Source: Methanomassiliicoccales archaeon
GTDB lineage: Archaea; Thermoplasmatota; Thermoplasmata; RBG-16-68-12; SOIM01
Direction: 5' to 3'
NCBI GenBank assembly: GCA_030593295.1
Contig: JAUVHO010000013.1
Span: 1-43,542, forward strand
DNA length: 43,542 bases
Under the pieces are notes generated by a model. That model was not told the origin of the DNA and ran no database searches. It saw nothing but the letters and a program-made list of their open reading frames with translations. The translations under genes and the position numbers were made by a program. Positions 17,119 to 37,942 of this stretch are shown here, piece by piece (within the stretch, counting starts at the first letter, position 1; each line of letters starts with the position of its first letter).

Positions 17119-17146
17119 CTAACTCCGTCATGCCATCTGAATTCTT

Positions 17147-17157
17147 CTATTTAATCT
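17147..17157 (-). promoter_or_regulatory. TATA-like box for the second STAND gene
   Basis: Minus-strand agattaaatag about 30-35 nt before the ATG at 17118, in the gap after the GTPase gene. Confidence 0.4.
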
Positions 17158-17182
17158 GCTCCCCAGCGGCAAATGTATCCTT

Positions 17183-18067
17183 CTAGCCCGACTGGTCTTT
17201 CACATTCCTTGCCAGATTCATCCACTTGTCCCTGTTTGCCAAAACAGTCTTCTCGTCCTGGAACTCAGCCCCAGCTTCGGCCAGGTACTCGGCAACCTTC
17301 AGAAGACCTTCCTTCGACGGACTTCTGATGTCTATGCCGGCTCTGACAATCTCCTGACGAAGAAGGGACATGGCCACCCGGTCATCCTTGAAATCGTCAC
17401 AGAAATCGACTATGATGGCGTCAAGAGCTCCCACAGGAGTACCGGTGTCCGTCTGCCTGTGCACTCCCATTGCAACCAGGCTTTCATACAGGTCCTTTAT
17501 TGGGTCGTCAGGTATCTCCTTAGCAAGCACCATATGCCCCAGGCTTTCGAAGGCGGTCTCAACATTGTCCCCGGTCTTGGCGCTTGTCGAAAAACAAGTT
17601 GTGAGATTGGCTGGAAGCTCTTTCTTGAACCCTGAATTGTACCTTGATGCGACGGCGATGAGGTCGTCCTGCTCAAAAGCGTAATCACCGGACAGATCGT
17701 TCTTGTTGCAGGCAAAGACCAGCGGAACGTGCTCCACGACATCGAAGAGCAGTGGTATCCAATACCGTTCAAGGGTCTTCAGCGTCTCCCTCCGGGACAT
17801 ATCGCAAACAAGTATTGCACCATGAACGCCCGCAAAGGTCCTGGAGTGTGTTGCGGTGTAGCCCGCTCTCCCTAGGACGTCCCATATCATGAGCCTCAGG
17901 TCGGTCTCCTTGCCATCCTTGGAAATCGCCATCTCCTTCTTGGTGACCTTGCTACCAATGGTCGAGATATAAGCATCATCGAACTTGTCGAACACAAAAC
18001 GCCTAATCAAGCTCGTCTTGCCAACAGCGCTATCCCCCAACATCACGATCTTCTTCTTGACGGCCAT
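17183..18067 (-). CDS. Ras-like small GTPase with a C-terminal extension
   Basis: A 294-residue protein whose first 180 residues form a Ras/Rab-type G domain: G1 GDSAVGKT at 11-18, a G2 Thr at 36 (YISTIGSK), G3 WDVLGRAGY with Asp63 and Gly66, G4 NKND at 121-124, and G5 TSAKTG at 161-166. The residue after the G3 Gly is Arg67 where Ras-type proteins have the catalytic Gln. Residues about 190-294 form an extra domain I do not recognise (AMSLLRQEIVRAGIDIRSPSKEG, in parts). No lipidation motif or TM segment is seen. The ATG at 18067 lies 5 nt from a GAGGG. A GTG at 18073 is also in frame but less well placed. Confidence 0.92.
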   Translation of the reverse strand: MAVKKKIVMLGDSAVGKTSLIRRFVFDKFDDAYISTIGSKVTKKEMAISKDGKETDLRLMIWDVLGRAGYTATHSRTFAGVHGAILVCDMSRRETLKTLERYWIPLLFDVVEHVPLVFACNKNDLSGDYAFEQDDLIAVASRYNSGFKKELPANLTTCFSTSAKTGDNVETAFESLGHMVLAKEIPDDPIKDLYESLVAMGVHRQTDTGTPVGALDAIIVDFCDDFKDDRVAMSLLRQEIVRAGIDIRSPSKEGLLKVAEYLAEAGAEFQDEKTVLANRDKWMNLARNVKDQSG

Positions 18068-18100
18068 GACCACCCTCGCTCCGTGGGCGTATCAGTATCA

Positions 18101-22129: not shown

Positions 22130-22224
22130 TCACATTGGCTATGGAATCAGAACATCATTGGTGATGACGACAAGATGTGTCCAACTTACTGAAATCGCAA
22201 AGGAATGTTGAAATCGAAAACCGG

Positions 22225-22878: not shown

Positions 22879-23869
22879 GATCCTCCTCCTTTGGTTCCTT
22901 GGACTTTGTGATCTTGTAGCCGATGATCCCGGCGAAGATGACAGCTTCGGTGACAATCACTATCTGGATGATCCACGCGGTCATGTTTGGGATTTCAGGC
23001 CTCTCTTGTATGGAAAGTGTGAAGACGGCCGTATCCGTGACCAGAGGACCGTTGCCAGTATCGCGATTCGCTATTATCCGATACTCAAGCTGGACTTCTG
23101 TTCCCGGGGCAAGAATGGAGCCTTCGAACACCCATCCATTCCCATCCTCTATCGAGGTGTTTGTCATCTCGATGGACTTGAACTGCGATCCTCCGACCTC
23201 CCTCCAGTGCAAGAATACCTTGGTCGCATTCACAACAGATGCCTGCATAACGGTTGGCTCTTCGACATAACCGGTCGACACGGGGCTGTGCTCAATAGTG
23301 GGCAAACCCAGAGGCAACGGGCTGACCTCCACGCTGATGGTCCCTGAGTAATCCTCCCACAATGGGTTCCTGGCAATGCTACCGTGGTGGACCCGGACGT
23401 GCAGGACGTAAGTGCCTGGAGTTGCAGGAGCGACTAGACTCCATTTGAATGTGACCGTCTCCCCTGAGGCCGGTGAGTGCTTCTCCACGTAGTTGTGGGC
23501 GTCATCACCAACACCCCCGTTGGGATCCTGAGATATGGTCCACCCTTGACTTGAAGGATGATCGTCCGAACCCGTCTGAGAACCCAGCACGAACACGCCG
23601 ACGAGAGAGTCACTGCCCAATTGAACGAGTGTCACGTTGACCGTCACAGCAACGTTCTGACCGGAAAGGACCGAGGTCTTGTCAAGTTCAACCTGAATCT
23701 CACCCGCTCCATGATTCGCGTCTCCCAAATGGCAGGATGTCCCGCAGTTGTAGTCCTGAGTATCATCACCCGAACCTCCGCTGTAGGCATTGACGAAACC
23801 TGCCACGAGTACTCCAGAGAGAGCGAGAAAAGCAATGAAGGAACCGATTCTCTTGACCTTTGTGTTCAT
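22868..23869 (-). CDS. Membrane-anchored mono-heme cytochrome c-like protein with CX3CH
   Basis: A 333-residue protein: signal peptide (about 8-28), a heme-attachment-like site NCGTSCHLGD (C-x3-C-H, atypical) just after it, then beta-rich domains (about 55-290) resembling reelin or choice-of-anchor folds, a C-terminal TM helix (about 298-322) and a short charged tail. Covalent heme binding at CX3CH is inferred. The ATG at 23869 is chosen over the TTG at 23884. It overlaps the start of the next membrane protein by 11 nt. A perfect 15-bp palindrome lies 50 nt upstream. Role: probably periplasm-side electron transfer to or from the five-helix partner. Confidence 0.8.
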   Translation of the reverse strand: MNTKVKRIGSFIAFLALSGVLVAGFVNAYSGGSGDDTQDYNCGTSCHLGDANHGAGEIQVELDKTSVLSGQNVAVTVNVTLVQLGSDSLVGVFVLGSQTGSDDHPSSQGWTISQDPNGGVGDDAHNYVEKHSPASGETVTFKWSLVAPATPGTYVLHVRVHHGSIARNPLWEDYSGTISVEVSPLPLGLPTIEHSPVSTGYVEEPTVMQASVVNATKVFLHWREVGGSQFKSIEMTNTSIEDGNGWVFEGSILAPGTEVQLEYRIIANRDTGNGPLVTDTAVFTLSIQERPEIPNMTAWIIQIVIVTEAVIFAGIIGYKITKSKEPKEEDHDT

Positions 23870-23918
23870 TCTCTTTCGAGTCAAGTGAGACCCCCTACTC
23901 CAGGCTTACTGGGAACGG

Positions 23919-24047: not shown

Positions 24048-25634
24048 CTAGGTCTCTTCTTCGGGTTCGGGTTCCTCCTCCTCAGGTTTCTTGGGTGCAA
24101 TCTTCCGCATCCTGTAGAACATGAAAATGACAAGTACAACTAGAAGGGCTATGACAATGACAGCGATCAAAAGAGGTATGAACAGTGATTCCTCGGTAAT
24201 GGTCACGTCCCCAACATCAGTTGTCTGCTGGCTCTGGACCGTGACCAGGTCAATGCTTCCAACCAGATTCCCCTTGAGCTTCAAGTCGAACGAATGAGTT
24301 CCTGGGGCGAATGAGAATGAGAATGTCCCGTTGCTGCTGGTTGTTGCCGTGGTCATCCCATCGATCACTACCACAACGCCCTCAACTGGATTGCCGGATT
24401 CATCAATGACCCTTCCCTCAACGGTTCCAGGTGTGAGAAGTCCGATGATCTCATTGCTCTTGTTCTCAGCGAAATTCAAAAGCTGTTGCGCGTAGACCGG
24501 ATTGTGAGATCCACCACTGCCATCAGCAACAACGAAGGTGAGAGAGTAATTGGCCTGTTCGTGCAACTCTCTGGCCAGGTCAATAGTACTGTCTGAAAAG
24601 CCATAGTCCGGGGCGTCATCGATTGCCTTTCCAGCAAGAACCACCAATGCCTGGACATCAACAATCTTGGTCCACGTCTGGGTCTTCCATTCGGCTATCT
24701 GGACCTGTGCGGTGTCGTTCGAATATATTGGGGGAGTACTCGAGTGACATTCGACGCAGGCCTCTGCCTTGGGAGTGAAACTATGCCCTGTCACGTTGGT
24801 CTGCTTGTTCATGTAGACGTGGCAGTCAGCACACACAACGTCAGGCATGAAGGGCTCACCGAGGATCGGTACCCCGCTTGTCCCCTCCCTCATCGAGGAT
24901 TGCGGATGATATATGGGATCTCCGGGCAGGGCCCCAGATGGATTGTGGCAATCAGCACAAAGCTCGTCTGCAGGCTTTCTGAGTTGATTGGGGTTGTCTG
25001 AGTTATGAGGATCGTGACACCTTGAACATGTGATACTGTATTGTGCGTTATCGAGTGTGGTCGCATTATCGAAGTACTCTTCCACGGAATGACAGATCAG
25101 GCACGATTCTTCAGCGGCTCCGGAGGCACCTCTGAGGCCCAGCAGTGATTGTGCGTGTCCGCTCTGGTTCCACTCCTCATAGTACGGATGGTGTTCTTCC
25201 TGATGACAGGTCGCACCGCACACAAAGGCCGAAAGGCTGACCTCCAATGGGTTGGCAGTGGGACCTACGATATGATCCTCTCCTGGGCCATGACAGGCCT
25301 CGCATTGAATACCCTGCATTGCAACAGGAAGATCGGTCACATTATCAAAACCATCCTGGCCGGTCAGACCATATCCAGTCACGTGGCAAACCTCGCAAGC
25401 CTCAATCTTGGAGGTGGAGTTGTTCAGAGGATTCCAGGCCTGTGGATGACGAGTGGAGTTCCAACCATCGTAAGAGGGTATATGGCAATCCCTGCATTCA
25501 TCCGACCCCACATATTTCTCATTTGCCCGCGTTCCCACCTCATCGGCGTACGCGGGTGGCTGGAATAGAATAACAAGAAGAAAGACCAGAAAGGCCACGA
25601 GCAGAATACCAAGAAACACGCTCTTTTTGACCAT
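24048..25634 (-). CDS. Nonaheme cytochrome c, membrane-anchored
   Basis: A 528-residue protein. Signal peptide at about 5-30. Heme sites are C47RDCH, C80EVCH, C111EACH, C139GATCH (atypical CX3CH), C178LICH, C203SRCH, C226ADCH, C268ADCH and C293VECH: eight standard plus one variant. The spacing resembles the cytochrome c554/octaheme family. A carboxypeptidase-regulatory beta domain (about 400-480) and a TM helix (about 488-510) with an acidic tail follow. It aligns heme for heme with the 724-residue cytochrome encoded at 32732. It has its own TATA-like box. It probably works in extracytoplasmic electron transfer; donor and acceptor are unknown. Confidence 0.9.
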   Translation of the reverse strand: MVKKSVFLGILLVAFLVFLLVILFQPPAYADEVGTRANEKYVGSDECRDCHIPSYDGWNSTRHPQAWNPLNNSTSKIEACEVCHVTGYGLTGQDGFDNVTDLPVAMQGIQCEACHGPGEDHIVGPTANPLEVSLSAFVCGATCHQEEHHPYYEEWNQSGHAQSLLGLRGASGAAEESCLICHSVEEYFDNATTLDNAQYSITCSRCHDPHNSDNPNQLRKPADELCADCHNPSGALPGDPIYHPQSSMREGTSGVPILGEPFMPDVVCADCHVYMNKQTNVTGHSFTPKAEACVECHSSTPPIYSNDTAQVQIAEWKTQTWTKIVDVQALVVLAGKAIDDAPDYGFSDSTIDLARELHEQANYSLTFVVADGSGGSHNPVYAQQLLNFAENKSNEIIGLLTPGTVEGRVIDESGNPVEGVVVVIDGMTTATTSSNGTFSFSFAPGTHSFDLKLKGNLVGSIDLVTVQSQQTTDVGDVTITEESLFIPLLIAVIVIALLVVLVIFMFYRMRKIAPKKPEEEEPEPEEET

Positions 25635-25720: not shown

Positions 25721-25957
25721 TCATTCGACCTCCTGAGCGGGTCCTTCTTCGCGCACAGCCTCCTTCTTCCATGAATCAGGATACCTGAAGATGCGATATG
25801 CGAACATCACCTGGGCAAGCACAATAAAGCCTATCCCAAACAAGAAGACGCTCTCCTGATATTCTCCAAGATATCCATTGTAAGCAGCATATACGAACGA
25901 CGCGATACTGATCGCGGCGAGGATGTACACCAAGTATAGACCCATATTGGATCTCAT
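25721..25957 (-). CDS. Small membrane protein, last gene of the cytochrome b operon
   Basis: A 78-residue protein with two TM helices (about 6-26 and 35-54) and a charged C-terminus ending in several Glu. Its ATG overlaps the stop of the previous gene (ATGA), so it is translationally coupled to the cytochrome b set. No Cys or conserved His is visible, so it is more likely a structural subunit than a heme carrier. I do not recognise the family. Confidence 0.75.
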   Translation of the reverse strand: MRSNMGLYLVYILAAISIASFVYAAYNGYLGEYQESVFLFGIGFIVLAQVMFAYRIFRYPDSWKKEAVREEGPAQEVE

Positions 25958-26247
25958 CTCTCTCCACCCTCCCTGTCAACGTGAATCTCCAGGAACCTCA
26001 GTCTCTTCTTCTGCCGTCCTTTGAGCTTGTCGACATTATAGAATATCGATACGATGGAGTACATGAGGACCAGTGTGAGATACGTGGACACCAAGAACAA
26101 AAAGAGGAGGAGGATGTCGAACCCTTTCAGGAGGTTGGAGAAGGAATATGTCATGAACCACAGGGTGACACCCGAGAGCGATATCAGTAGAAGGGTGTAG
26201 ACCAGGATCCTTGCACCTGGAGATCTCGCTTTCGTTTTGGCTCTCAT
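25954..26247 (-). CDS. Small two-helix membrane protein of the cytochrome b operon
   Basis: A 97-residue protein with hydrophobic helices at about 13-33 and 43-69, then a basic segment (KLKGRQKKRLRF). Both ends overlap neighbours by ATGA, which makes a shared complex likely. No redox motif is visible. The positive loop suggests the C-terminus faces the cytoplasm. The family is unknown to me. Confidence 0.75.
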   Translation of the reverse strand: MRAKTKARSPGARILVYTLLLISLSGVTLWFMTYSFSNLLKGFDILLLFLFLVSTYLTLVLMYSIVSIFYNVDKLKGRQKKRLRFLEIHVDREGGER

Positions 26248-26621
26248 ATGAATCCCATGACCGTGAATGCTGCCCAGAATGCCACCAGGGCCAGTATGAT
26301 CGCGAAGAAGATCAGCCTCTTGCGTGGATGTTTTTCCTCTGACTTGTCGAGAAATGGCATGGCCAAGAGGAGGATGACCACTGCAAAGACGACCAGAGCG
26401 CCGAACAATGGGGAGACGAAGTCGATCATCTCCAGAACTCCCACGAAGAATATGTTGGGGAACCCAAAGGGCTCGGGTCTGCGGAGAGCGGCGGCAATAA
26501 AGATGATGCCAGTAATCAAGAATACTACCCCAATCTCTTCAATTATGTGGTTGGGAAGGAAAGGTCTGGAACATTCTTCGGATTCCGCCTCAGTCTCTTT
26601 CTTTGGTTCTATTTCGGTCAC
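26244..26621 (-). CDS. Cytochrome b subunit IV-like protein
   Basis: A 125-residue protein with three TM helices. The segment FLPNHIIEEIGVVF followed by RRPEPFGFPN resembles the start of subunit IV/PetD and the C-terminal half of cytochrome b, which helps form the quinol-oxidising site. The usual PEWY motif is not apparent; PEPF occurs instead, so the quinol site may be altered. The GTG at 26621 overlaps the stop of the cytochrome b6 gene (GTGA). A longer frame to 26714 is only overlap. Its position directly after a b6-type gene supports the assignment more than sequence alone. Confidence 0.75.
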   Translation of the reverse strand: MTEIEPKKETEAESEECSRPFLPNHIIEEIGVVFLITGIIFIAAALRRPEPFGFPNIFFVGVLEMIDFVSPLFGALVVFAVVILLLAMPFLDKSEEKHPRKRLIFFAIILALVAFWAAFTVMGFI

Positions 26622-27322
26622 AGTGGACCACTTATCCCGTGCTTTCTGATAAGGTAGAAATGGAAAAGGAGGAACAGAATGATCGCAATTGGGAGTACGG
26701 TAACATGCATCCAATAGGATCCGGTGAGAGCTTCCCCGACAGTATCAGACGCCCAGTTGAAGGCACCGCCCACATGAGGGATGGCCCGAAGCCATCCGAA
26801 GGCCCCGGACATCGAAGTGATGGCGAAATCGGACCTCTCATCCATGGGGAGGACATATCCCGTGAGAACGAACAGGAACGTGAAAACGAGCAGGATCACC
26901 CCACCCATCCAGGTCAGTTCCCTCGGGTTCTTGTATGAACCAGTGATGAAGACCCTCAGAGTATGGAGAAGCACGGCTATGACCATTACATTCGCCGCCC
27001 AACTGTGGATGCTCTTTGCGTAGAAACCAAAAGGTAGCTCAGTGGAGATTATCTGGATGCTCCGTTGGGCCCCACCCTCGGAAGGTTCGTAGTAGTTCGC
27101 CAGGAAGAATCCGGTCAAGGCCAGGATCAAGAAGGCGACCAGGGTGACACCTCCCAGGCAATATGCCGGGTTGAGAGCGTGCTTGGGAACGGTCTTCTCT
27201 TCAGTCTCCTTCATGAAGTACTCAAGACCACTTCTGGCGAGTATCCAATCTCGGGCCTTGGTGAATATCTTGCTTACAGGGACCAGAACCGCGGATATGC
27301 CCTTGCTCGATTCCTTGGCCAT
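26618..27322 (-). CDS. Cytochrome b6-type protein with a heme ci cysteine
   Basis: A 234-residue, four-helix cytochrome b N-terminal domain. Heme b ligands are His106/His120 (13 residues between) and His206/His221 (14 between), the b6 rather than bc1 spacing. NPAYCLGGVTL has Cys55 where cytochrome b6 binds heme ci covalently. The protein should oxidise or reduce quinol in the membrane together with the subunit IV-like protein. It starts 4 nt after the dodecaheme cytochrome gene. No Rieske or cytochrome f gene is in the window, so the dodecaheme protein may take the electrons. Confidence 0.92.
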   Translation of the reverse strand: MAKESSKGISAVLVPVSKIFTKARDWILARSGLEYFMKETEEKTVPKHALNPAYCLGGVTLVAFLILALTGFFLANYYEPSEGGAQRSIQIISTELPFGFYAKSIHSWAANVMVIAVLLHTLRVFITGSYKNPRELTWMGGVILLVFTFLFVLTGYVLPMDERSDFAITSMSGAFGWLRAIPHVGGAFNWASDTVGEALTGSYWMHVTVLPIAIILFLLFHFYLIRKHGISGPL

Positions 27323-27326
27323 GATA

Positions 27327-28259
27327 CTACGCCTCGCTTTTCCTCCGGGTCAGAGCAAGAGCTGCTAGAATCGAAATCGAGGCTACCAATGCAATGATGC
27401 TGAAGAGCAATACATTGAAAATGACATCTTCTTCGGGTGTTCCTGAAGAAGCGTGCATGGGCTCATGACATTCCAGGCACTTCGGGTACGAATAGCCGTG
27501 ATACTCTCCATGACACTCATCGCAGGTCTTGGTCACAGTCTGGTGCTCACCATGACACTCCGAACATTCACCTTCACTGTGCCCACCATCCTGGAGCTTT
27601 GCGAACTCTGCCGGGTGACAGTCCTGGCAGACCTCATTGCTGAGATTGTGCTTGAAGGTCGCCTCGATGGGATCATGACAATCGAGACATTCAGGATACA
27701 CATATCCTCCGGAGATCCAATCGCTATGCTTGACACCATGACAGGAGTCGCACTGATTGGCAGGGGCGGTGTGATTCTGGTGGCAGTTGGTGCAGTCCTG
27801 CCAGCTGTGAGAGCCCATGTCCAGACGAGCGGTTTCATTGGTATGACAGGTCGCACATTGCTCGTTGGTTATCTCATGTTTCCAGTTGGTTGCATGAGGG
27901 TCATGACAATCAAGACATGAGGGGTATTCGAAGTCGTGCATGTCGCCGTGGCAGTACCCACATTCAGTTGTGATGTTCAGCTCTGACTCAGTTTCTGAAT
28001 CGTGGCAGGTCTCGCAGGCGGCCCACGAGTGCTTCCCCCCCTCCACAGATTGAGCAATGGTGAAGTGGCACGAAGTACAGTCATCTGCCCTTGTACCGTA
28101 GAGACCGTGTTGAATGACGACATCGGTCTCCTCCGGAGCCGTATCGGAATTCGTCGAGGATGCCTGGAGCAGAACGCCAACAATCATGATAAGGACGATG
28201 ACGAAAATCGGCTTCCGCAAGGCAACAGTCCTTCTCATACGCTCTGGAGGTTTGTACAT
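27327..28259 (-). CDS. Dodecaheme cytochrome c, C-terminally anchored
   Basis: A 310-residue protein with twelve CXXCH sites: CTSCH, CETCH, CGYCH, CLDCH, CATCH, CTNCH, CDSCH, CLDCH, CQDCH, CSECH, CDECH and CLECH. That is about one heme per 20 residues in the heme domain (about 60-270). The repeating pattern YPxCLDCHDP suggests internal duplication of units of about four hemes. A signal helix (about 15-33) and a C-terminal TM helix (about 280-303) would hold it on the outer face of the membrane. As first gene of the operon before cytochrome b6, it is the likely electron partner. The ATG at 28259 is leaderless-like; Met8 is an alternative. Confidence 0.93.
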   Translation of the reverse strand: MYKPPERMRRTVALRKPIFVIVLIMIVGVLLQASSTNSDTAPEETDVVIQHGLYGTRADDCTSCHFTIAQSVEGGKHSWAACETCHDSETESELNITTECGYCHGDMHDFEYPSCLDCHDPHATNWKHEITNEQCATCHTNETARLDMGSHSWQDCTNCHQNHTAPANQCDSCHGVKHSDWISGGYVYPECLDCHDPIEATFKHNLSNEVCQDCHPAEFAKLQDGGHSEGECSECHGEHQTVTKTCDECHGEYHGYSYPKCLECHEPMHASSGTPEEDVIFNVLLFSIIALVASISILAALALTRRKSEA

Positions 28260-28509: not shown

Positions 28510-29871
28510 TCAGCCCTTCCCGTCGATCTCCTTCATCACGTCAACCGCACTCTTCTTGTACTTCTCCAGGAGGTTCTCATAGACATCTTCTGGGATCTTC
28601 CCTTCCTCGAAATCGGTCTTCAGCCTCTGGATCGCCAGTAACATGGTCTGCTTTTTCTGTTCGAGCTCGGAAGGGGGTTCTACGACGTCTTCTGTATCCT
28701 CCGCGCCTTCAGGTGTTTCCTTCCCCTCTCTGGCGAACTTCTTCCGGTAGAACATGTACCCGATCAGGCTTCCGATAACGACAAGGGTCATGATCAGGGC
28801 CAGAAGGGAGTAGTCGAACTCGTTCTTCCAGCCTACTGTGAAGCTGATAGTGTCATTGGGGGAGAGGCCAATCCCGATCATTACGTACTTCTCTCTCTGA
28901 TACAGGACGCTCCACTGGGAAGGGAATATATCCAGATTGTCTCCGACGGTCATCTTGTCGTCCTCGAGAATGAACGCGAATATCTCTATGAAGTCATTGG
29001 GGTAGATGAGCTCCTTCCGGTACAGGTAGTCTGCGGATGGATCGTCGGCACCGTCAATAGGAATGACATAAGCGAGCTGTATCTCGATCTTGTACGTGGG
29101 GACCTGAATGTGCAGAATAATCTCCTTGCTCTCATTTGACCCAATCGAGGTCTCGTTGACTACCCCATTCTCTATCAGGATAGCGGTCCAACCTTCGGGG
29201 AGTCCAGTAATCTCAAAATCGACCGTGTCGTTGAACGGGGAGTTGTTGGTTATGTTGATCGATTGGATGAGGCCCAACCTCTCGGCCATTCCGCTCGCAT
29301 CCATTGGAATGGTCGCCACGACACCCAGCTGTTCAGCATTGTCGGTCAGGTGCAGTCCATCCCCGGTGACCACAGGATAATCACCGAAGGCCTGTGTTTG
29401 ACCTACCGTCACATTGAGAAACAGACTATCTGAATAAGATGAGTTCTGGGCAGTTCCATCGATAACTATGGTCGCCTCCTGGCCGAAGTATGACCTGAAA
29501 GTGCCCGGCTCGAACGGTTGACCATGAACGATGTTATCTGTACCGGTCGGGAGCATGTCGAAGCAAAGCATCACACCTCCCCCGTCCATCCTGCATGCCA
29601 TGTTGGGGGCATTGCCGCAGCATTTGGACCTAACGACAGCGTTGTCCGGAAGCCAGGAGTAGATGGTCACATTGAATGTGTCGGTTCCTGTGTTGTTGAA
29701 GAAGATGAACTCAACGACATCCAGGGTTTTGCGGTCCTCCTCCTGGACGATGTCGATCCATCTTTCATCCACCACAAGATCGTTCGTTGGTAGCGGATCG
29801 TCGGCGCTTAAGTGAATAGGGATGGTCGTCAACATCAGCAGTGCAATGAATATGATTGCTCCAGTCCTCAT
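28510..29871 (-). CDS. Membrane protein coupled to CcmF; candidate cytochrome-maturation partner
   Basis: A 453-residue protein: signal peptide (about 1-23), an extracytoplasmic beta-rich region with Ig-like folds (about 25-350), a TM helix (about 356-376) and a cytosolic tail ending in a helical SHOCT/CcmI-like stretch (KTDFEEGKIPEDVYENLLEKY, in part). Four Cys cluster at 84, 85, 93 and 103 (KCCGNAPNMAC, then MLC). Its ATG overlaps the ccmF stop (ATGA), so the two are co-translated. CcmH-like LRCxxC motifs are absent. A role in presenting or reducing apocytochrome is inferred from linkage and the Cys cluster only. Confidence 0.8.
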   Translation of the reverse strand: MRTGAIIFIALLMLTTIPIHLSADDPLPTNDLVVDERWIDIVQEEDRKTLDVVEFIFFNNTGTDTFNVTIYSWLPDNAVVRSKCCGNAPNMACRMDGGGVMLCFDMLPTGTDNIVHGQPFEPGTFRSYFGQEATIVIDGTAQNSSYSDSLFLNVTVGQTQAFGDYPVVTGDGLHLTDNAEQLGVVATIPMDASGMAERLGLIQSINITNNSPFNDTVDFEITGLPEGWTAILIENGVVNETSIGSNESKEIILHIQVPTYKIEIQLAYVIPIDGADDPSADYLYRKELIYPNDFIEIFAFILEDDKMTVGDNLDIFPSQWSVLYQREKYVMIGIGLSPNDTISFTVGWKNEFDYSLLALIMTLVVIGSLIGYMFYRKKFAREGKETPEGAEDTEDVVEPPSELEQKKQTMLLAIQRLKTDFEEGKIPEDVYENLLEKYKKSAVDVMKEIDGKG

Positions 29872-32684
29872 CCTTCCTCCTCCAGTTTCATCAGCTCTTC
29901 TTCCAGCAACTTCTCGTAGTCCTTCTCGGCGACCTCGACCCCTTCTTCGACCTTGACTCCCGCGACCTTGGCCTCCTCAACGACCTCTTCCTTGGCCTTG
30001 GGTCTAGTCTTATCCTTCTTCACAGGTGGACGCCTAATCGGGAGATAGTCGACAAAGACCAGAAGGAATATGCCGAAGGACCCCATCCACAGACCACCCC
30101 ACAATGCGCCCATGAGGGGCAGGGTCTTGATCTTGAAAGAGACGCCCTGAACGTCATCCGATTCGAATCTTCTCGGGGTATCCCCAGGCGGGGTAACCTC
30201 ATGGGCCCAGATCCAGTCATTGTCATCGGCGGTATTCATAGCGTCTGGGATGATGTATATGTCCTCGTAGTAAGTGTTCTCAACGTAGACATCCAGCATA
30301 TAGTGGGCATCGTTCGGATTGGCAGGTATCATCCACCACAGATGGAATTCGGCTTCCCCAATAAGTGTCCCGTCCCGGGTAATCTCGGCAATCGCGGTGA
30401 TCTCCTCAAAGGTCCCATCTCCCTCGACATCGATTCCATGCGAGTCCACCAGCCGTAGCTCGTACCCCTCGAAGTTAACTGGAATACCGACCAAGAGGGC
30501 CCCCCCAGAGTATGCCAAGAAATCCTCGTCCTCTTCGACCATCAGATATGTGCTCCCAGCATAGCCAATCAGAAGCAATACAATGCTGAGATGGATGAGA
30601 TGGGGACTAACCCCGCCGAGGACCGATCTGACAGATTGGACGTTGAGGCGGTCCTTGGAGAAAGCGGATATGGACATCAGTATCAACAGCAGAGCGATCA
30701 TGCTTATGACGCTCCCAACGAAAAAGTAACCTAGGGTCAGAATCCCAAGGATGGAGCCGATTATGCATATCAGAGGACTTCGTCCCCTCAGGCAGAAGAG
30801 TCCGCCGATCATGGCACCTGCCGAAGCAAGGAATCCCAAGGCTCCGATCAGAAGGTCTGGCTTCACTGGTGGAGAAAAGCCAATTATCCTGGTCAAGCTG
30901 GACCAGAACAGCATACCGATGATGCCAGCAATTACGAGGAAGAGTCCAGCAATCTGCAGGCTTCTCTTACCGGTCTTCCTGGTGCTGCCGGTGGCCATCA
31001 TGAATATCCTGTAAATCGCGGCAAAGAGCGCACCGATGAGTACCACAATGTACGCACCGAAGACGTTGCCGGAGAAGACGGCGTAGTAGGCTAGGAACGT
31101 CGCGATGATCAAGGCGACTATGACGTAAACGGAGTTCTGTCGACCTAGATACCTCCAGGCCAAACAAACAACAAGCGTGATCATGAGCGGTATTATGATC
31201 AACGGCAACCGGCTCTCAAAGACCTCTGGTTGAAGTCCCTCAGAACCCAATATCATAAGCAGGAGCGTCGTTACGAACCAGATAGTGAAGATCGAGACAG
31301 AAACTAACATCGTGGTCTTGTCGTTGATCACGCTCGCCAAAGTCACTGGTTCGGTGTCCTCCTCCTTCTCTTGAGAGGTGTATATTATCCATAAGATGGG
31401 GATTCCGATAATCAAAAGGGCCAATATGGTCAGACCAATGCCTTTGTTGCCGAACCCTATGAGATTAGAAACACGAAGTCCGAGTGAAGTGAAAGAGGCA
31501 ACGTCCACGATAGCGAAAAGCAGGAGAATTGCCAGGAAGATCATGTACAGGCTTGGAAACATGCCAGCTGCTCCCTTCAAGGAGCCTTCTCTCTTCCTGA
31601 TGTTGTAGAACATCCACATGAAGAGGATTCCAGCAACAAGCAGAACTGCCAGCATCATCATCATAAAGAAGCCAGCACCGAGGTTCCCCTCCAGTATCGC
31701 GATCAGACGGTCGCCCGGATCGGATAGGCCGGTCCCTGGTCCCGTGAAGGCGTGCAACGGGGACGTCACAAATCCACTTCTGGTCTCAAATGTCGCAAAG
31801 ATGATGAGAACGAATGTGACGACCGCTAGCAGCGGAGCCAGGAAACTGTACTGTCCCCGCTTCCGAAAGTACGATTGAGTATGCACAAAGCCAGTGAGCG
31901 CGATCCATGGGATCAGATTGGCGACCTCGACCGGGTCCCAGCCCCAGTACAGTCCCCATCCGAGAACGGTATAGGCCCACAGGGCACCGATGCCGATACC
32001 CAGAGAAAGGAACAACCAGCTCAATCTGCTCCACTGCAATGATGAGTCGGTCCACTTCCTGTCACCGGTGATGAGATAGGCAAGGGCCGAGGCCAATGGG
32101 AGCGTCATGAAGGCGTATGCTGCGAATTCCACGGGTGGGTGAGCGATCATCAGAGGCGTCAAGAGCAATCGATTGATTCCTCTACCGTCTGGGAAGCTGA
32201 CAAGGTCGAGCGTGGTGGTCGCCTTGAAGACATCCGTGTTGATGAGGAGGATGAAGAAGGCGATGAGAATGATCATTGAGATTGTCCTTATCCAGTCGTA
32301 CAGAAGAACAGCCTTATCGTCCACCCCCGCCTTCTTCGCTCTCCAGCCCTGAATTGCCTCCTCGATGATGATGGACAGAGAGATCAACCAGACCCAGAGC
32401 ACAATGGTCCCTTCCTCCCCGGCCCAAAGGCCAGTCAGTTTGTAGTACCAGGGATAGTCGGTGGAGGTGTGCCCGTGAACGTAATGGATACCCAAGTTAG
32501 GCTCCAAGAAGTAATAGACGAGAAGGAAGAAGGCGGTTGTTGTGGTTATGAAACACAGGAATACCAGGAACCTGGACACATTCCGGTGCCTTCTGTCCTT
32601 TGTGTAGATGTGGGACAGTGACGATGCTACCGAAGCGGTGGCTAGAACCAGAGATAGGTAGACTAATACTGTTCCAATTTCCAC
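29868..32684 (-). CDS. ccmF: Cytochrome c heme lyase subunit CcmF
   Basis: A 938-residue multi-TM protein that, with its partners, attaches heme from CcmE to apocytochromes outside the membrane. Recognised by GLWAGEEGTIVLW near residue 90 and the WWD-type motif WGWDPVEVANLIPWI near residue 250. It is longer than bacterial CcmF (about 650) because of a C-terminal extracytoplasmic beta domain (about 720-850) followed by a TM helix and an acidic tail. It lies between two structural cytochrome operons. The start is an ATG at 32684 with a TATA-like box 33-43 nt upstream. The next gene downstream overlaps it by ATGA. Confidence 0.94.
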   Translation of the reverse strand: MEIGTVLVYLSLVLATASVASSLSHIYTKDRRHRNVSRFLVFLCFITTTTAFFLLVYYFLEPNLGIHYVHGHTSTDYPWYYKLTGLWAGEEGTIVLWVWLISLSIIIEEAIQGWRAKKAGVDDKAVLLYDWIRTISMIILIAFFILLINTDVFKATTTLDLVSFPDGRGINRLLLTPLMIAHPPVEFAAYAFMTLPLASALAYLITGDRKWTDSSLQWSRLSWLFLSLGIGIGALWAYTVLGWGLYWGWDPVEVANLIPWIALTGFVHTQSYFRKRGQYSFLAPLLAVVTFVLIIFATFETRSGFVTSPLHAFTGPGTGLSDPGDRLIAILEGNLGAGFFMMMMLAVLLVAGILFMWMFYNIRKREGSLKGAAGMFPSLYMIFLAILLLFAIVDVASFTSLGLRVSNLIGFGNKGIGLTILALLIIGIPILWIIYTSQEKEEDTEPVTLASVINDKTTMLVSVSIFTIWFVTTLLLMILGSEGLQPEVFESRLPLIIIPLMITLVVCLAWRYLGRQNSVYVIVALIIATFLAYYAVFSGNVFGAYIVVLIGALFAAIYRIFMMATGSTRKTGKRSLQIAGLFLVIAGIIGMLFWSSLTRIIGFSPPVKPDLLIGALGFLASAGAMIGGLFCLRGRSPLICIIGSILGILTLGYFFVGSVISMIALLLILMSISAFSKDRLNVQSVRSVLGGVSPHLIHLSIVLLLIGYAGSTYLMVEEDEDFLAYSGGALLVGIPVNFEGYELRLVDSHGIDVEGDGTFEEITAIAEITRDGTLIGEAEFHLWWMIPANPNDAHYMLDVYVENTYYEDIYIIPDAMNTADDNDWIWAHEVTPPGDTPRRFESDDVQGVSFKIKTLPLMGALWGGLWMGSFGIFLLVFVDYLPIRRPPVKKDKTRPKAKEEVVEEAKVAGVKVEEGVEVAEKDYEKLLEEELMKLEEEG

Positions 32685-32731: not shown

Positions 32732-34906
32732 TCATTCTTCGCTTTCCATCTCGGGCTCTGGCTCTGGCTCAGGGGCCATCTCTTCTTCCATTGGCTCCTC
32801 TTCTAGAGAGGGACCTCCCCTCTTCTTCATGGCCACAACCGCGATAATTATGACAACGACTATTATCACGATTATAATCAGATAGAGCCACAGCATGTCC
32901 TGTTCTTCCTCTGGCGGTTCGCCGATCTTGATTGGGCCAACGTCATTCTCGCTGCCTGCGGTGGTAACCCATTCGTAAGTTGAATCTTCCACACCATCCA
33001 CGACGATGCTGAAGGTCCGGGTACCGGCAGCGAGCTTGAGCTCGAATGATCCGTCGGAACCAGTTAGTACGTAGATGTCCCCATATGTGATGTTGACATT
33101 TGCTACGCCAACGTCGTCCTGATCCACAATTGTGCCCACGATCGTACCTGGATCGAATAGAGCACGAACCTCGTTCGCCTTTGTATTCGCGAAGTCGAGA
33201 AGATCCTCAGCGAACATGAAGTTGTGGTACTGGCCCAGACCTGAATCAACGACGCCAAATGCGAAGTGTGCTTTGTTTGCCAGTTCCTCGGCTTCTGTCA
33301 TCGTAGCAACCGGGAAGTCCTGATGTTCAGCCTCTTCGAGTGCTGTCACCATAGCAGTGATGTTGATCTCAGTGCCCGCCTTGAGCGGTAGGATCAGTGC
33401 TTCCCAAGAATCAATGTCAACCTGGGCTTCCGCATCGGTCAGAGTGTGACCCGCAACTCCATCGTGACAAGACGATGTACACGAGTTGGGCACTCCAACG
33501 GCAATGGTCTGATCCGGCGTTATGACCTTGAACGTGTGGCTTGAGATGTCGCCCGGCAGAGCGCTCTTGGCCGTGCCGGTCATGTGGCAGTCCGTGCAGG
33601 TGACCGATCCACCCATCCATGGCATTGGTGTTATTGTGCCTGGCATATCATCGTCCAGAATTGTAGTACCTGCAATTATCTCAGTCTGTGCATGATGAGG
33701 TTCGTGATCAATCTCCTGCACACCTATCGTGTGGCAGGCACTGCAAAGCTCATCTTGTGGAAGTCTCAGCTGGTGATCGTTTCCTGCTGAATCGTGTGAC
33801 GTATGGCACGCAGCACAAGTCTGTGTCCAGGTGGCATTCCCAGCATCAGGAGCCGCCGGCCCTCCAAGAGACTCTATGAAGCCTTCTGTGCTCTTGCAGC
33901 TCATGCAATCTGTTCTCTGGGCAAAGCCGGCCGCGGTCTTCGCGTGTCCGCCACTCGCGGTGGTCAACCAGTCCCGGTACTGCTGGTGATGCTGCTTTGA
34001 GGAGTCATGCTCGTCACCCCAGGTGCCTTCCCCGGGGGTATAGAATTCAGCGAGCGTATCACCAGGCATATACCACCCTTGGGTAGCGCTCCAGGGATAG
34101 CCGAGCTCATCGGCACTACCTAGAAGCGTCCCATTGCTCACTCCCCGAATGTGGCATTGACCACAAACCTGAGCATCGACTGATTTCCAGATAAAATCAG
34201 GGTCCATGGTGGCCGCGTGCTCACTGCCAGGACCATGACAAGATTCACAACCAGCATTCAACTCTGAATACGTAGCGGTCCATTCGTTTGTGCCGGCGCT
34301 ATAAGTGACATCAGTACCGGTAGAATGACAGCCGGCGCAACCCCGGTCCCAAGAATCCTTCGTTGCACTTGGCTGGGGTATGAGATCTCCGGCGCTGTTA
34401 TACCATCGCTCCAGGTGGTACGCAACCCATTCCTGGGTCGCTTCATTCCACTGAATCGGCAGGAAGTACAGGCTTGCGTTTAGCTGGGTCAGATACCTCT
34501 GCTTCCAGAACGATCCAACCGTCTGGTCCACCGGGAACGTGGTGTTGTCCAACGTAACAGTGAATACTCCGGCGGTATCATCCAGATCTATGATTACATC
34601 TGGTATTCCAGCAGCGTTCAGGATCGGGTCAATCGTGAAGTCTCCAGTGACATTCGCGACCGTCGGGTCCTGAATCATCTTGCTGTGGAGAGACTCATTC
34701 CAGTGGTCCCACTTGAAATCCCACCCGGCATTGTTGTGACAGCCTTTGCAGGTATCGGACCCCACGTACGTAGCGCTGTCCATGTAGCTATTGTCAGTCG
34801 ACCCTCTTGTTCCTTCGTCTTCGCCGATGGTGCCGAAACCGAAAACTAAAACACCGACCGCGACGCCGATAGCAATCATTGCAATTGCAGCAGAGATCCT
34901 TTTCAT
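32732..34906 (-). CDS. Nonaheme cytochrome c with a CXXCK fifth site, membrane-anchored
   Basis: A 724-residue protein. Signal helix about 5-25. Heme sites: C53KGCH, C190AGCH, C220ESCH, C248GQCH, C334MSCK (Lys in place of His), C364AACH, C388SACH, C437TDCH and C476TSSCH (CX3CH). Between sites 1 and 2 lies a 130-residue insert absent from its shorter paralogue at 24048. A carboxypeptidase-regulatory beta domain (about 590-670), TM helix and Glu/Met/Pro tail follow. CXXCK marks the catalytic heme in NrfA nitrite reductase and octaheme reductases, so a reductase role is possible; the substrate is unknown. An ATG at 34906 lies after a GGGG-rich site with a TATA-like box upstream. Confidence 0.92.
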   Translation of the reverse strand: MKRISAAIAMIAIGVAVGVLVFGFGTIGEDEGTRGSTDNSYMDSATYVGSDTCKGCHNNAGWDFKWDHWNESLHSKMIQDPTVANVTGDFTIDPILNAAGIPDVIIDLDDTAGVFTVTLDNTTFPVDQTVGSFWKQRYLTQLNASLYFLPIQWNEATQEWVAYHLERWYNSAGDLIPQPSATKDSWDRGCAGCHSTGTDVTYSAGTNEWTATYSELNAGCESCHGPGSEHAATMDPDFIWKSVDAQVCGQCHIRGVSNGTLLGSADELGYPWSATQGWYMPGDTLAEFYTPGEGTWGDEHDSSKQHHQQYRDWLTTASGGHAKTAAGFAQRTDCMSCKSTEGFIESLGGPAAPDAGNATWTQTCAACHTSHDSAGNDHQLRLPQDELCSACHTIGVQEIDHEPHHAQTEIIAGTTILDDDMPGTITPMPWMGGSVTCTDCHMTGTAKSALPGDISSHTFKVITPDQTIAVGVPNSCTSSCHDGVAGHTLTDAEAQVDIDSWEALILPLKAGTEINITAMVTALEEAEHQDFPVATMTEAEELANKAHFAFGVVDSGLGQYHNFMFAEDLLDFANTKANEVRALFDPGTIVGTIVDQDDVGVANVNITYGDIYVLTGSDGSFELKLAAGTRTFSIVVDGVEDSTYEWVTTAGSENDVGPIKIGEPPEEEQDMLWLYLIIIVIIVVVIIIAVVAMKKRGGPSLEEEPMEEEMAPEPEPEPEMESEE

Positions 34907-35022: not shown

Positions 35023-35736
35023 TTGCGACATTCGTTGATAGAAATCGAGAATCTTGTAAGAGAATTCGGGAGAAAAGGCGTGATAAACGGTATCGATCTT
35101 CGGGTCGAGAAAGGGGATTACCTCGTAATCCTCGGACCGAACGGAGCCGGCAAGACCACCCTCCTCAAGCTCATCTCCACGCTCCTCCGGCCCTCTGAGG
35201 GGACCATCAAGATAGACGGATACGATGTGAAAGAGGATGGAGTGGCAGTTAGGAGACGGATCGGGGTACTGGGCCACGTTTCATACCTTTATGACGAACT
35301 GAGCGCGCTCGAGAACCTGCGATTCTATGCGAAGATGTACGGTGTAACCTTGGGACTGGAGGAGATCAAAGCCATTCTGTCCAGAGTGAAACTGGCCCAC
35401 AGGATGAACGATCTGGTCGGGACATATTCCAGGGGTATGAAACAGCGGTTGGCAATTGCCAGGGCCATCATCCACAAGCCCAAGATCCTGCTCCTTGATG
35501 AGCCGTATACAGGGCTGGACCTTAACGGACGGAAGATCTTGACCGACATGCTGCGGGAATTCCAGAAACATGGCATGACAACGGTCATGGTCACGCATGA
35601 CATAGAAAGAGGATACGAGATGGGCAACCGATTGGCCGTGATAATCGACGGGAAGATCGCCGCTGATCTGCGAAAAGAGGATGTGAGCATAGAGGACTTC
35701 AAGAACAGATATGCGGGCTTGATGGGGGCAGCATGA
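35023..35736 (+). CDS. ccmA: Heme exporter ABC ATPase CcmA
   Basis: A 237-residue ABC ATPase: P-loop GPNGAGKT at 38-45, signature YSRGMKQRLAIARA near 138, Walker B ILLLDEP near 156 and switch His in VTHD. It is the first gene of a tight ccmA-B-C-D-E set. In System I, CcmA powers release of holo-CcmE from the CcmABCD complex, on the cytoplasmic face. The start is TTG at 35023 or more likely TTG at 35035 (LIEIENLV). Its stop overlaps ccmB by ATGA. ATPase sequence alone is not specific; the assignment rests on the following ccmB and ccmC genes. Confidence 0.9.
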   Translation: MRHSLIEIENLVREFGRKGVINGIDLRVEKGDYLVILGPNGAGKTTLLKLISTLLRPSEGTIKIDGYDVKEDGVAVRRRIGVLGHVSYLYDELSALENLRFYAKMYGVTLGLEEIKAILSRVKLAHRMNDLVGTYSRGMKQRLAIARAIIHKPKILLLDEPYTGLDLNGRKILTDMLREFQKHGMTTVMVTHDIERGYEMGNRLAVIIDGKIAADLRKEDVSIEDFKNRYAGLMGAA

Positions 35737-36407
35737 GCGTGAACGGTATCACTATTGCATTGAAGGACCTGAGGGTCGAGTTCAGAACGATGAGGATGAT
35801 CGTCACGATGGTCATCTTCTCCTTGATGGTGATCATGGCGTTCAGATTCGCTTTCCTTTTCTACTCCGTCGAGGCAGAACCAACAATAATCGCACCCATA
35901 CTCTGGGTCACGTTCACCTTCGCAGGGATGTTCGGGCTGGTGTCGTCCTTTTCCAAGGAGAAGGATACAGGTTCCCTGCAAGGATTGATGCTGTGTCCCT
36001 CGGACAGATTCTCGATTTATCTCGGAAAGCTCCTGTCCAACCTCGTCCTGCTGCTGATCGTGGACTTCGCCGCCCTGCTGTTCTTCTCGGTCTTCTTCGA
36101 CTTCGACTATGGTGGCAACATCGTACCCATAGTATCTTTGGTGATGCTGGGATCGGTCGCGTTCACGATAGTCGGAACTTTGGTGGCGGGGCTGTCCGTG
36201 AACCTCAAAGGAAGGGAGAGCGCATTGACAATCCTTATGTTGCCGTTGATCATTCTAACTGTACTGATGCCGGCGATAATCGCTACCTCAAAGGCCTTGG
36301 ATGGTCAGATAGGGGACGCATGGGGAGAGATCAGAATCATCGGAATGTTCGCCCTGGTCTATCTGGCGCTTTCATATCTCCTGTTCGAATACGTACTGGA
36401 GGCATAG
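35733..36407 (+). CDS. ccmB: Heme exporter membrane subunit CcmB
   Basis: A 224-residue, six-TM protein. The conserved block FAGMFGLVSSFSKEKDTGSL near residues 68-87, then GLMLCPSDRFSIYLGK, is characteristic of CcmB, the membrane partner of CcmA. It overlaps ccmA (ATGA) and is followed 2 nt later by the ccmC GTG. No unusual features are seen. Confidence 0.93.
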   Translation: MSVNGITIALKDLRVEFRTMRMIVTMVIFSLMVIMAFRFAFLFYSVEAEPTIIAPILWVTFTFAGMFGLVSSFSKEKDTGSLQGLMLCPSDRFSIYLGKLLSNLVLLLIVDFAALLFFSVFFDFDYGGNIVPIVSLVMLGSVAFTIVGTLVAGLSVNLKGRESALTILMLPLIILTVLMPAIIATSKALDGQIGDAWGEIRIIGMFALVYLALSYLLFEYVLEA

Positions 36408-36409
36408 AC

Positions 36410-37375
36410 GTGGACAAGAGAAAAGCACTGGATTATGTACTTCTGATCGGGTCGCTGATCTTCATATTGATCACCATCTTCATGGCGATATACTACGTGC
36501 CATTGGTCGGGACCGACGTCTCGATCGTTGCTCAGAAACCGGACGAATACACCGAGCTCGAGTTGAGGGTGAAGGGGATCGTCGATGACATAAGCGGTGC
36601 ATCCGAGTTCCATCTGGTGGACATCGGCAACTCGGAATTTGAGTTGAACGTTGAACATAATGAGAACCTCCCCTCCGGACTGAGCGAGAATGATGTGGTC
36701 ATCGTGACAGGCGTTCTGGTTGACACTGACGCATTGGTCTTCGAATCCACGGATATTGAAATGGCAGATGACGACACCAGTGCGGGTTGGGTCGCTCCAT
36801 ATGCCCAGAAGATATTCTATTTGCACACCCCGGCAGCATGGGCATCCTATCTTGCATTCGGCATCGTCTTCGTCGGGAGCATAATCTACCTCAAGAACGG
36901 CAGCAACAAGTGGGACACCATTGCCCTGTCCTCGGCTGAGATAGGAGTCATGTTCTGCACCTTGGCGATAGTCACTGGCCCTCTCTGGGCAAAACCGGAG
37001 TGGGGTGTGTACTGGAGATGGGAGGACACCAAACTCCTCACGACGTTCGTCATGTGGATGATCTACCTGGGCTACATCACTCTGAGACTTGGCATGGAGG
37101 GAAGGAGCGTGGCCCGCATAGCCGCTGTCTTTGGAATAATCGGCTTCATGGCCGTTCCTTTGTCGTTCATATCTTCCAGGCTCTGGCAGAGCCTTCATCC
37201 GAACCCGGTCGGGCAGAGCGGTGGGCTGTCATCCGAAGCGGGAATGACACTTATGGTGGGAGTGATCGCCATGAGCTTCCTGTATTTCTATCTGCTAAAG
37301 AAACGTGTGGAACTGGAGGAGATCCAACACAAAGTTGAAGAATTAAAGGACAATATGGAAGGTGAGATCGAATGA
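36410..37375 (+). CDS. ccmC: Heme handling protein CcmC with an OB-fold insert
   Basis: A 321-residue protein of the WWD family, which loads heme onto CcmE. Markers: YLHTPAAWASYLAF with His139, WGVYWRWEDTKLL as the tryptophan-rich motif, and SLHPNPV with the second heme-ligand His. Between TM1 (about 9-30) and His139 is an insert of about 75 residues (46-118; LRVKGIVDDISG, then FHLVDIGNSEFEL and VVIVTGVLV) that looks like a CcmE-type OB fold without the heme-binding residue. The GTG at 36410 lies 7 nt after GGAGG, which fixes the start; the open frame extends back to 35993 only as a shadow of ccmB. It overlaps ccmD by ATGA. Confidence 0.93.
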   Translation: MDKRKALDYVLLIGSLIFILITIFMAIYYVPLVGTDVSIVAQKPDEYTELELRVKGIVDDISGASEFHLVDIGNSEFELNVEHNENLPSGLSENDVVIVTGVLVDTDALVFESTDIEMADDDTSAGWVAPYAQKIFYLHTPAAWASYLAFGIVFVGSIIYLKNGSNKWDTIALSSAEIGVMFCTLAIVTGPLWAKPEWGVYWRWEDTKLLTTFVMWMIYLGYITLRLGMEGRSVARIAAVFGIIGFMAVPLSFISSRLWQSLHPNPVGQSGGLSSEAGMTLMVGVIAMSFLYFYLLKKRVELEEIQHKVEELKDNMEGEIE

Positions 37376-37518
37376 GAGGACTCGACGGGCTATACATTGC
37401 GTACACGGTCATTTGGCTGGGAGTGTTCGGCTACATGCTATATCTTCATCTGAGGCAGCAGAGGCTATTGAAAGACGTCAAGAATCTCGAGGGGATGTTG
37501 AGTGAACGAGGAAGTTGA
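37372..37518 (+). CDS. ccmD: CcmD-like small membrane protein
   Basis: Only 48 residues: one TM helix (about 6-25; YIAYTVIWLGVFGYMLYL) followed by a charged helix (RQQRLLKDVKNLEGML), the normal layout of CcmD, which stabilises the CcmABC-CcmE complex. Its ATG overlaps the ccmC stop (ATGA), and its last 17 nt overlap the ccmE start. CcmD proteins are poorly conserved, so the call rests on size, topology and position. Confidence 0.8.
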   Translation: MRGLDGLYIAYTVIWLGVFGYMLYLHLRQQRLLKDVKNLEGMLSERGS

Positions 37519-37942
37519 GAGTGACGAAGTTCAGGAAGCCAAGGTCGAGACCGAGGCTGAGAGGCCCAGGTCGAGGCTGACTGGAAAGAGGAAGAAGCTG
37601 CTAACTGCTGTTGCCGTGTTGGTGATAATAGCACTGGCACTTGTCGTTGGTTTCTGGGGCAACACACCGGTTCCGTACATGACCGTCAGTCAGGTCATTG
37701 ACAACTCTAATTCATACGTTGACAAGGAGATCGAGATCAAAGGGTTCGTTGAGAACTGGAACTCGGCGGCGAGGACCTTCGACTTGACCGATGAGGAGTC
37801 CGTTCTGAGGGTTAGCTACGACGTAATTCCAGATGGCTTCAATAACGGAAAGGAAATCGTTGTGAGCGGCGTACTGAAAGGTACCAACGGAGTGGTGTTG
37901 GAGGCCGATGAGATAACCGTGGGCTGTCCCTCCAAATACTGA
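37502..37942 (+). CDS. ccmE: Heme chaperone CcmE, CxxxY variant
   Basis: A 146-residue protein: charged cytosolic N-terminus, TM helix at about 33-52, OB-fold domain (58-138; VDKEIEIKGFVENW, then FDLTDEESVLRVSY and IVVSGVLKG), and an ending in VGCPSKY. Cys142 and Tyr146 take the place of the HxxxY heme-binding motif of classical CcmE. CxxxY CcmE proteins are known from archaea and some sulfate reducers and usually go with a modified System I lacking CcmH, which matches what is seen here. The start is a GTG at 37502 inside ccmD. Confidence 0.92.
   Translation: MNEEVESDEVQEAKVETEAERPRSRLTGKRKKLLTAVAVLVIIALALVVGFWGNTPVPYMTVSQVIDNSNSYVDKEIEIKGFVENWNSAARTFDLTDEESVLRVSYDVIPDGFNNGKEIVVSGVLKGTNGVVLEADEITVGCPSKY

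Follow-up and report, generated by a model that had tools for sequence, protein, structure and literature searches.

A Rieske-less b6/subunit IV-type cassette with a dodecaheme cytochrome in Thermoplasmata suggests a transmembrane electron conduit

A five-gene cassette of Thermoplasmata encodes a dodecaheme c-type cytochrome (MHC12), a b6-type cytochrome b (cytb), a subunit-IV-like protein (subIV) and two small membrane proteins (s1 and s2). It probably specifies a Rieske-less, bc-derived membrane complex that acts as a non-bifurcating transmembrane electron conduit. The ligands of hemes bL and bH and the heme-ci cysteine are kept while the p-side quinol site and the Rieske protein are lost, a pattern to be expected if electron flow remains transmembrane but has become non-bifurcating. 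As a rule, a cytochrome b of the b6/bc1 type is deemed inseparable from its Rieske protein and Qo site. The cassette suggests that a relative of the bc complex has been rebuilt as a simple transmembrane electron wire in uncultured sediment archaea.

Gene organization and conservation

The window, which is the whole stretch of 43,542 nucleotides that was analysed, carries the five genes in tight succession (Table 1). The intergenic distances between MHC12, cytb, subIV, s1 and s2 are +4, -4, -4 and -4 bp, which confirms both the gene positions and the overlapping or abutting arrangement reported in the initial annotation. No Pfam family was found for s1, and none exceeded its cut-off for s2. Both proteins can be aligned with s1' and s2' of a paralogous, Rieske-containing cassette (type II, as opposed to the type I cassette of the window), so the two proteins first described as unknown are common to two cassette types.

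Table 1. Features of the window discussed in the text
Feature	Coordinates	Strand	Evidence or remark
Junction lacking the G293/G294 Rieske-cytb island	22157-22158	.	blastn
Octaheme cytochrome c	24048-25634	-	8 CxxCH, PF02335, PF13620, C-terminal TM
s2, small two-helix membrane protein	25721-25957	-	type I/II alignment
s1, small two-helix membrane protein	25954-26247	-	type I/II alignment
Subunit-IV-like protein (subIV), 3 TM	26244-26621	-	GTG start, overlaps cytb stop
b6-type cytochrome b (cytb), 4 TM, hemes bL/bH	26618-27322	-	PF00033, PDB b6, Foldseek, clade support
MHC12, dodecaheme c-type cytochrome	27327-28259	-	12 CxxCH
453-aa signal/TM protein, no known family	28510-29871	-	upstream of cassette in both families
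CcmF-like heme lyase	29868-32684	-	PF01578 1.4e-21; upstream of cassette
7-heme cytochrome c	32732-34906	-	C-terminal carboxypeptidase-regulatory-like domain + TM

The type I cassette was found in seven Thermoplasmata genomes of two families, namely that of the window (G000) and G293, G294, G296, G297, G302 and G308. The named relatives are metagenome-assembled genomes and the others look like such assemblies, with completeness of 76-95%. Each of the five cassettes measured, which represent both families, has 3-4 bp between MHC12 and cytb, and the remaining genes overlap or abut. In G308 the cassette is divided between two short contigs, and no s2 was found. Strong subIV matches occurred in 7 of 400 genomes sampled from the class, and these were the same seven cassette genomes. 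The comparison of gene order proposed in the initial annotation thus revealed a linkage conserved across seven genomes rather than unlinked genes.

Cytochrome b

Cytb matches the Pfam family Cytochrome_B (PF00033) at 1.5e-35 and cytochrome b6 in the PDB at 7.2e-50; in the latter match, Cys55 lines up with the cysteine of heme ci. Its structural model (pLDDT 58, low confidence) returned b6f structures as the top Foldseek matches (5.8e-11), with 42% identity in the match to b6. The score against Ni_hydr_CYTB was 24.7 bits, under the cut-off of 30.1 for that family. Judged from these comparisons, cytb is a true relative of b6. Type I cytb sequences form one clade with support of 98/99 in a tree that gives no sister-group placement for type II. 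The b6 histidine spacing and the heme-ci cysteine in AYCLGG, both noted at the outset, agree with b6: H106/H120 and H206/H221, the bis-His ligands of two hemes, and C55 are kept in 7/7 genomes. All seven also have b6 and subunit IV split into two genes. The C-terminal GISGPL of cytb is unchanged throughout, and the longer IRKHGISGPL is one residue off in G297.

Conservation is less even on the side of the quinol site. The cd1 motif, PWDQRAYWA in type II, is replaced in type I by PMDERSDFA, PMDERADVT, VDDARSEAI or LDDARSQSV, and only G297 retains LWDERSYFA; the PWD of the motif thus varies as PMD, LWD, VDD and LDD. Retention in type I was counted as cells per region, over those alignment columns that Rieske-linked cytb conserves. 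In the CD loop, 40/60 conserved cells were kept, versus 175/192 in other regions (Fisher p = 1.4e-5, a nominal value, as the sequences are related). The p-side AB loop kept 47/54.

Subunit IV and the Qo site

SubIV is a weak match to Pfam Cytochrom_B_C, with 24.3 bits against a cut-off of 20.7. The initial annotation had read PEPF in place of PEWY; the string exists but lies at the wrong position and is unconserved among relatives (PEPF, PEEV, PEEL, PEQA or VEAL), and the aligned site reads P(N/H/S)(I/V)F. The HMMER alignment pairs PEWYLLGYYEVF of Aquifex cytochrome b (6kls) with PNIFFVGVLEMI of the window subIV, and the alignment of type I with type II paralogues gives the same placement. The PEWY position is occupied by PNIF (as in the window), PSIF, PHIF or PHVF. 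The glutamate is replaced by N, S or H in all seven type I proteins, with His in four.

The loop in front of this site is also affected. The distance from RPF(L/W)P to the PEWY site is 36 residues in the six type I proteins measured (RQFLP in one) versus 61 in all three type II proteins, which shortens the ef loop before the site by 25 residues relative to the Rieske paralogue. The subIV gene of G293 is intact. PEWY or PDWY is retained in the Rieske-linked lineages checked, which comprise the phylum sample, f48 and f49 of the same order, Aminicenantes and Omnitrophota. At the level of the sequence, the Qo site of type I is thus shown to be dismantled, having lost the PEWY carboxylate, most of the preceding loop and, in most members, cd1. 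Matches from Aminicenantes, Omnitrophota and Elusimicrobia were rejected as ordinary cytochrome b on the evidence of loci L034-L036. There, cytb is adjoined by a small gene that, on visual inspection, resembles one for an iron-sulfur (Rieske-type) protein, and both L034 and L036 contain P(E/D)WY.

Search for a Rieske partner

The Rieske family PF00355 gave no match in G000, G296, G297 and G302 (88, 76, 95 and 92% complete) and one match each in G293, G294 and G308, adjoining type II cytb. When the relatives' own Rieske proteins were used as queries, only the type II copies were found in the cassette genomes, and the recovery of these type II genes serves as an internal control of the search. 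The chance that a Rieske gene was missed through incompleteness in all four genomes is ~1e-4, calculated as the product of the missing fractions with independence assumed. The absence of a Rieske gene from the window, which the initial annotation had noted, therefore extends to the rest of the 88%-complete genome, and the PF00355 search that it proposed yielded no gene co-occurring with type I cytb.

The type II cassette has the order Rieske-cytb-subIV-s1'-s2' in G293, G294 and G308, and in the first two of these an octaheme cytochrome gene comes next; the type II cytb shares 44-46% identity with that of the window. Since Rieske precedes the same order of subIV, s1 and s2, MHC12 holds the place of Rieske in type I. 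Comparison by blastn placed window position 22157 at 8370 and 22158 at 19105 of contig C77 in G294. The ~10.7-kb Rieske/NrfD/octaheme island of G293 and G294 is thus absent from the window at a single-base junction within a continuous contig. Separately, a ~1.7-kb block of G293 and G294 with a second octaheme gene is absent at 23868-23879, where ~12 bp are shared at the joint. In G294, the contig with the Rieske island also has open reading frames (L052:1-3169) that, judged by eye, encode a probable molybdopterin oxidoreductase and an iron-sulfur subunit.

The dodecaheme cytochrome

MHC12 contains the 12 CxxCH motifs counted in the initial annotation within 310 residues, whereas shuffled sequences averaged 0.15 such motifs and had at most 3. 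The hemes are arranged as three repeats of four, and an N-terminal TM/signal segment and a C-terminal TM anchor are predicted. All 12 heme sites are retained in MHC12 from seven genomes, and 11 His, Met148 and Met268 are invariant outside the motifs. In G297 (L054:9069-9989), one heme site has the form CX4CH (CDDERCH) instead of CxxCH. A search of the PDB by sequence gave a single weak match, to a cytochrome c7-like protein. The AlphaFold model built with four sequences had a pLDDT of 41, and the end helices were the sole part used.

Respiratory context and membrane carrier

A complex I-like enzyme is encoded in all seven cassette genomes; in G294, the visible part of its cluster lacks an obvious NADH module, as judged by eye. 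COX1 and cytochrome bd were not found in these seven genomes, and NrfD was found among them in G293 and G294 only. MqnA/MqnD of the futalosine pathway (PF02621) gave no match, and MenD (TIGR00173) nothing above its cut-off, in 11 genomes (G000 and 10 relatives). All 11 encode a complex I-like enzyme, and most encode b6-type cytochromes. A methanophenazine-like compound, or one of another kind, may serve as the membrane carrier. In the proposal of a quinol:multiheme cytochrome oxidoreductase, the word quinol is unproven in view of these searches for MqnA/MqnD and MenD.

Proposed mechanism and alternative explanations

We infer complex formation, heme ci, the electron path and the carrier alike. 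A lipophilic carrier on the n-side, either quinone or methanophenazine-like, would exchange electrons beside heme ci/bH. The electron path would connect this carrier through ci/bH and bL to MHC12, which would be membrane-anchored on the outside, and MHC12 would hand electrons on to the surface cytochromes with 7 and 8 hemes that are encoded next to the cassette. There would be no bifurcation at a Qo site and hence no Q cycle.

The direction of flow along the conduit can be considered both ways. We lean slightly towards outward flow, with oxidation of the carrier and extracellular electron transfer, because a complex I-like enzyme is present and the searches for the terminal oxidases COX1 and cytochrome bd found none; the complex is a plausible exit for the reduced carrier. 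Energy would be conserved if electrons flowed inward, while carrier oxidation on the n-side feeding the outside would cost proton-motive force. The b6/subIV pair may have been turned into an electrogenic reductase, with electrons passing from outside through the dodecaheme cytochrome and bL-bH-ci to the carrier, which takes up n-side protons and generates proton-motive force. This version is possible but has the lesser probability. If true, an archaeon would gain proton-motive force by taking up electrons.

The strongest challenge to a conduit of either direction is a quinol:cytochrome c oxidoreductase that still bifurcates, with an MHC12 heme substituting at Qo for the Rieske cluster and a Q cycle running via bL, bH and ci. 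MHC12 in the Rieske gene position, the complete transmembrane heme chain and the well-kept p-side AB loop all agree with it, and the p-side pocket could still bind quinol, given the four proteins with His at the Glu position and the cd1 of G297. In the bc mechanism, a mobile Rieske head gates one-electron transfer, and a fixed chain of close hemes such as MHC12 cannot do so. A Q cycle with MHC12 in place of Rieske is thus improbable, since type I lacks the PEWY site and 25 loop residues and has an eroded cd1, while its b-heme ligands and cysteine are invariant. The idea that MHC12 replaces the Rieske/c1 arm is accordingly retained in part: MHC12 has the gene place of Rieske in an otherwise kept cassette, but a working quinol-oxidizing site for it to serve is not supported. 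Invariance of the b-heme histidines and the heme-ci cysteine in all seven genomes also bears on a p-side quinol oxidase of the CymA/NrfH type, in which both electrons would go to MHC12 at the outer face and cytb would be mainly a scaffold. Such invariance is unexpected without membrane crossing and makes this explanation quite improbable, even though MHC12 is predicted to be membrane-anchored and enzymes of this kind feed extracellular electron transfer (PMC6295460).

Two other explanations deny the complex its unusual composition. MHC12 may lie in an operon of convenience without being a subunit of the cytb complex, as other cytochromes and Ccm genes also cluster here. The 3-4 bp between MHC12 and cytb in five of five cassettes from two families, and a place kept by MHC12 alone and not by the 7- and 8-heme genes, make this very improbable. 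Even less credence is given to a normal Rieske/cytb complex with its Rieske gene elsewhere, either missing from the assemblies or too divergent for PF00355. Completeness of 76-95% leaves some room for it, but there is no match in four of seven genomes, the relatives' Rieske queries recover type II copies only, the Rieske island is precisely absent from a continuous contig, and the Qo features needed by a Rieske head are lost.

Relation to known systems

The cassette shares with cytochrome b6f (PetB/PetD) the split four-TM b6 with a heme-ci cysteine and the three-TM subunit IV. It differs in its loss of the PEWY site along with the larger part of the ef loop, and in having a 12-heme cytochrome and a pair of small subunits rather than a Rieske protein and cytochrome f. 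By the features that define bc1/b6f complexes, a bis-His cytb is present, Rieske is either absent (4/7) or associated with another cytb (3/7), and of the Qo motifs PEWY is replaced (7/7) and PWD is varied. Multiheme Rieske/cytb complexes are known from anammox bacteria (Kustd1480-1485 and Kuste4569-4574, b6/SUIV-like with multiheme cytochromes; PMC12954380), Methanoperedens (MPEBLZ_00816-00823; PMC4683180) and Geobacter (GSU2930-2937; PMC2825233). Like the cassette, they have multiheme cytochrome c, which accompanies or substitutes for cytochrome f/c1, but all of them keep Rieske; type II resembles these complexes, whereas type I does not. In Ca. Angelarchaeales, also Thermoplasmata, complex III loci are described with a Rieske gene but without a cytochrome c (PMC9038741).

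Rieske-free combinations of b-type with multiheme cytochromes are known on other scaffolds. The methanophenazine-cytochrome c oxidoreductase (Mco) of ANME archaea combines a b-type with a 7-11-heme cytochrome and is proposed to serve extracellular electron transfer (PMC9012536). Its cytochrome b is of the VhtC hydrogenase type, while that of the cassette belongs to the b6/subunit IV type, with Ni_hydr_CYTB below cut-off. The bc-type proteins CbcL of Geobacter, MtrH and MtoC form a link from the quinone pool to electron transfer outside the cell, with the CbcL family implicated in both directions (PMC6295460), and CbcBA is an inner-membrane bc-type cytochrome of Geobacter with the same link (PMC12307469). 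CbcL is bacterial, and its HydC/FdnI-like membrane domain is fused to a c-type domain, whereas the cassette has separate genes and a b6-family cytochrome. The complex would work like CbcL or ANME Mco, on a b6/subunit IV scaffold. Besides the VhtC and FdnI types, this would possibly be a third scaffold that joins membrane carriers to multiheme wires. No published description of a Rieske-less b6/subunit IV complex was found in literature searched without most subscription journals. The two paralogues, which occur in the same genome in three cases, pair Rieske with an intact Qo motif and the dodecaheme cytochrome with a dismantled one, and so constitute a natural experiment on the role of each part. 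The electron exchange of anaerobic sediment Thermoplasmata with their surroundings could become directly testable.

Neighbouring genes

The 7- and 8-heme cytochromes next to the cassette are likely its external partners. The octaheme gene has the same place in G293 and G294. The gene of the 453-aa type is found in the same place in G293, G294, G296, G297 and G302, and a fragment of it lies upstream of MHC12 in G308. The position of the CcmF-like gene is kept in relatives with enough flanking sequence. At their C-termini, both the 7- and the 8-heme cytochrome have a carboxypeptidase-regulatory-like domain followed by a TM helix, a recurrent layout that may anchor surface cytochromes. Ccm genes (CcmA-like ABC ATPase, CcmB, CcmC-like, CcmE and CcmF) flank the cytochromes on both strands, at 35023-37942 and at the CcmF-like locus. 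Further away, at 14182-18073, a Ras/Roc-like GTPase gene adjoins that of a large AAA-TPR protein.
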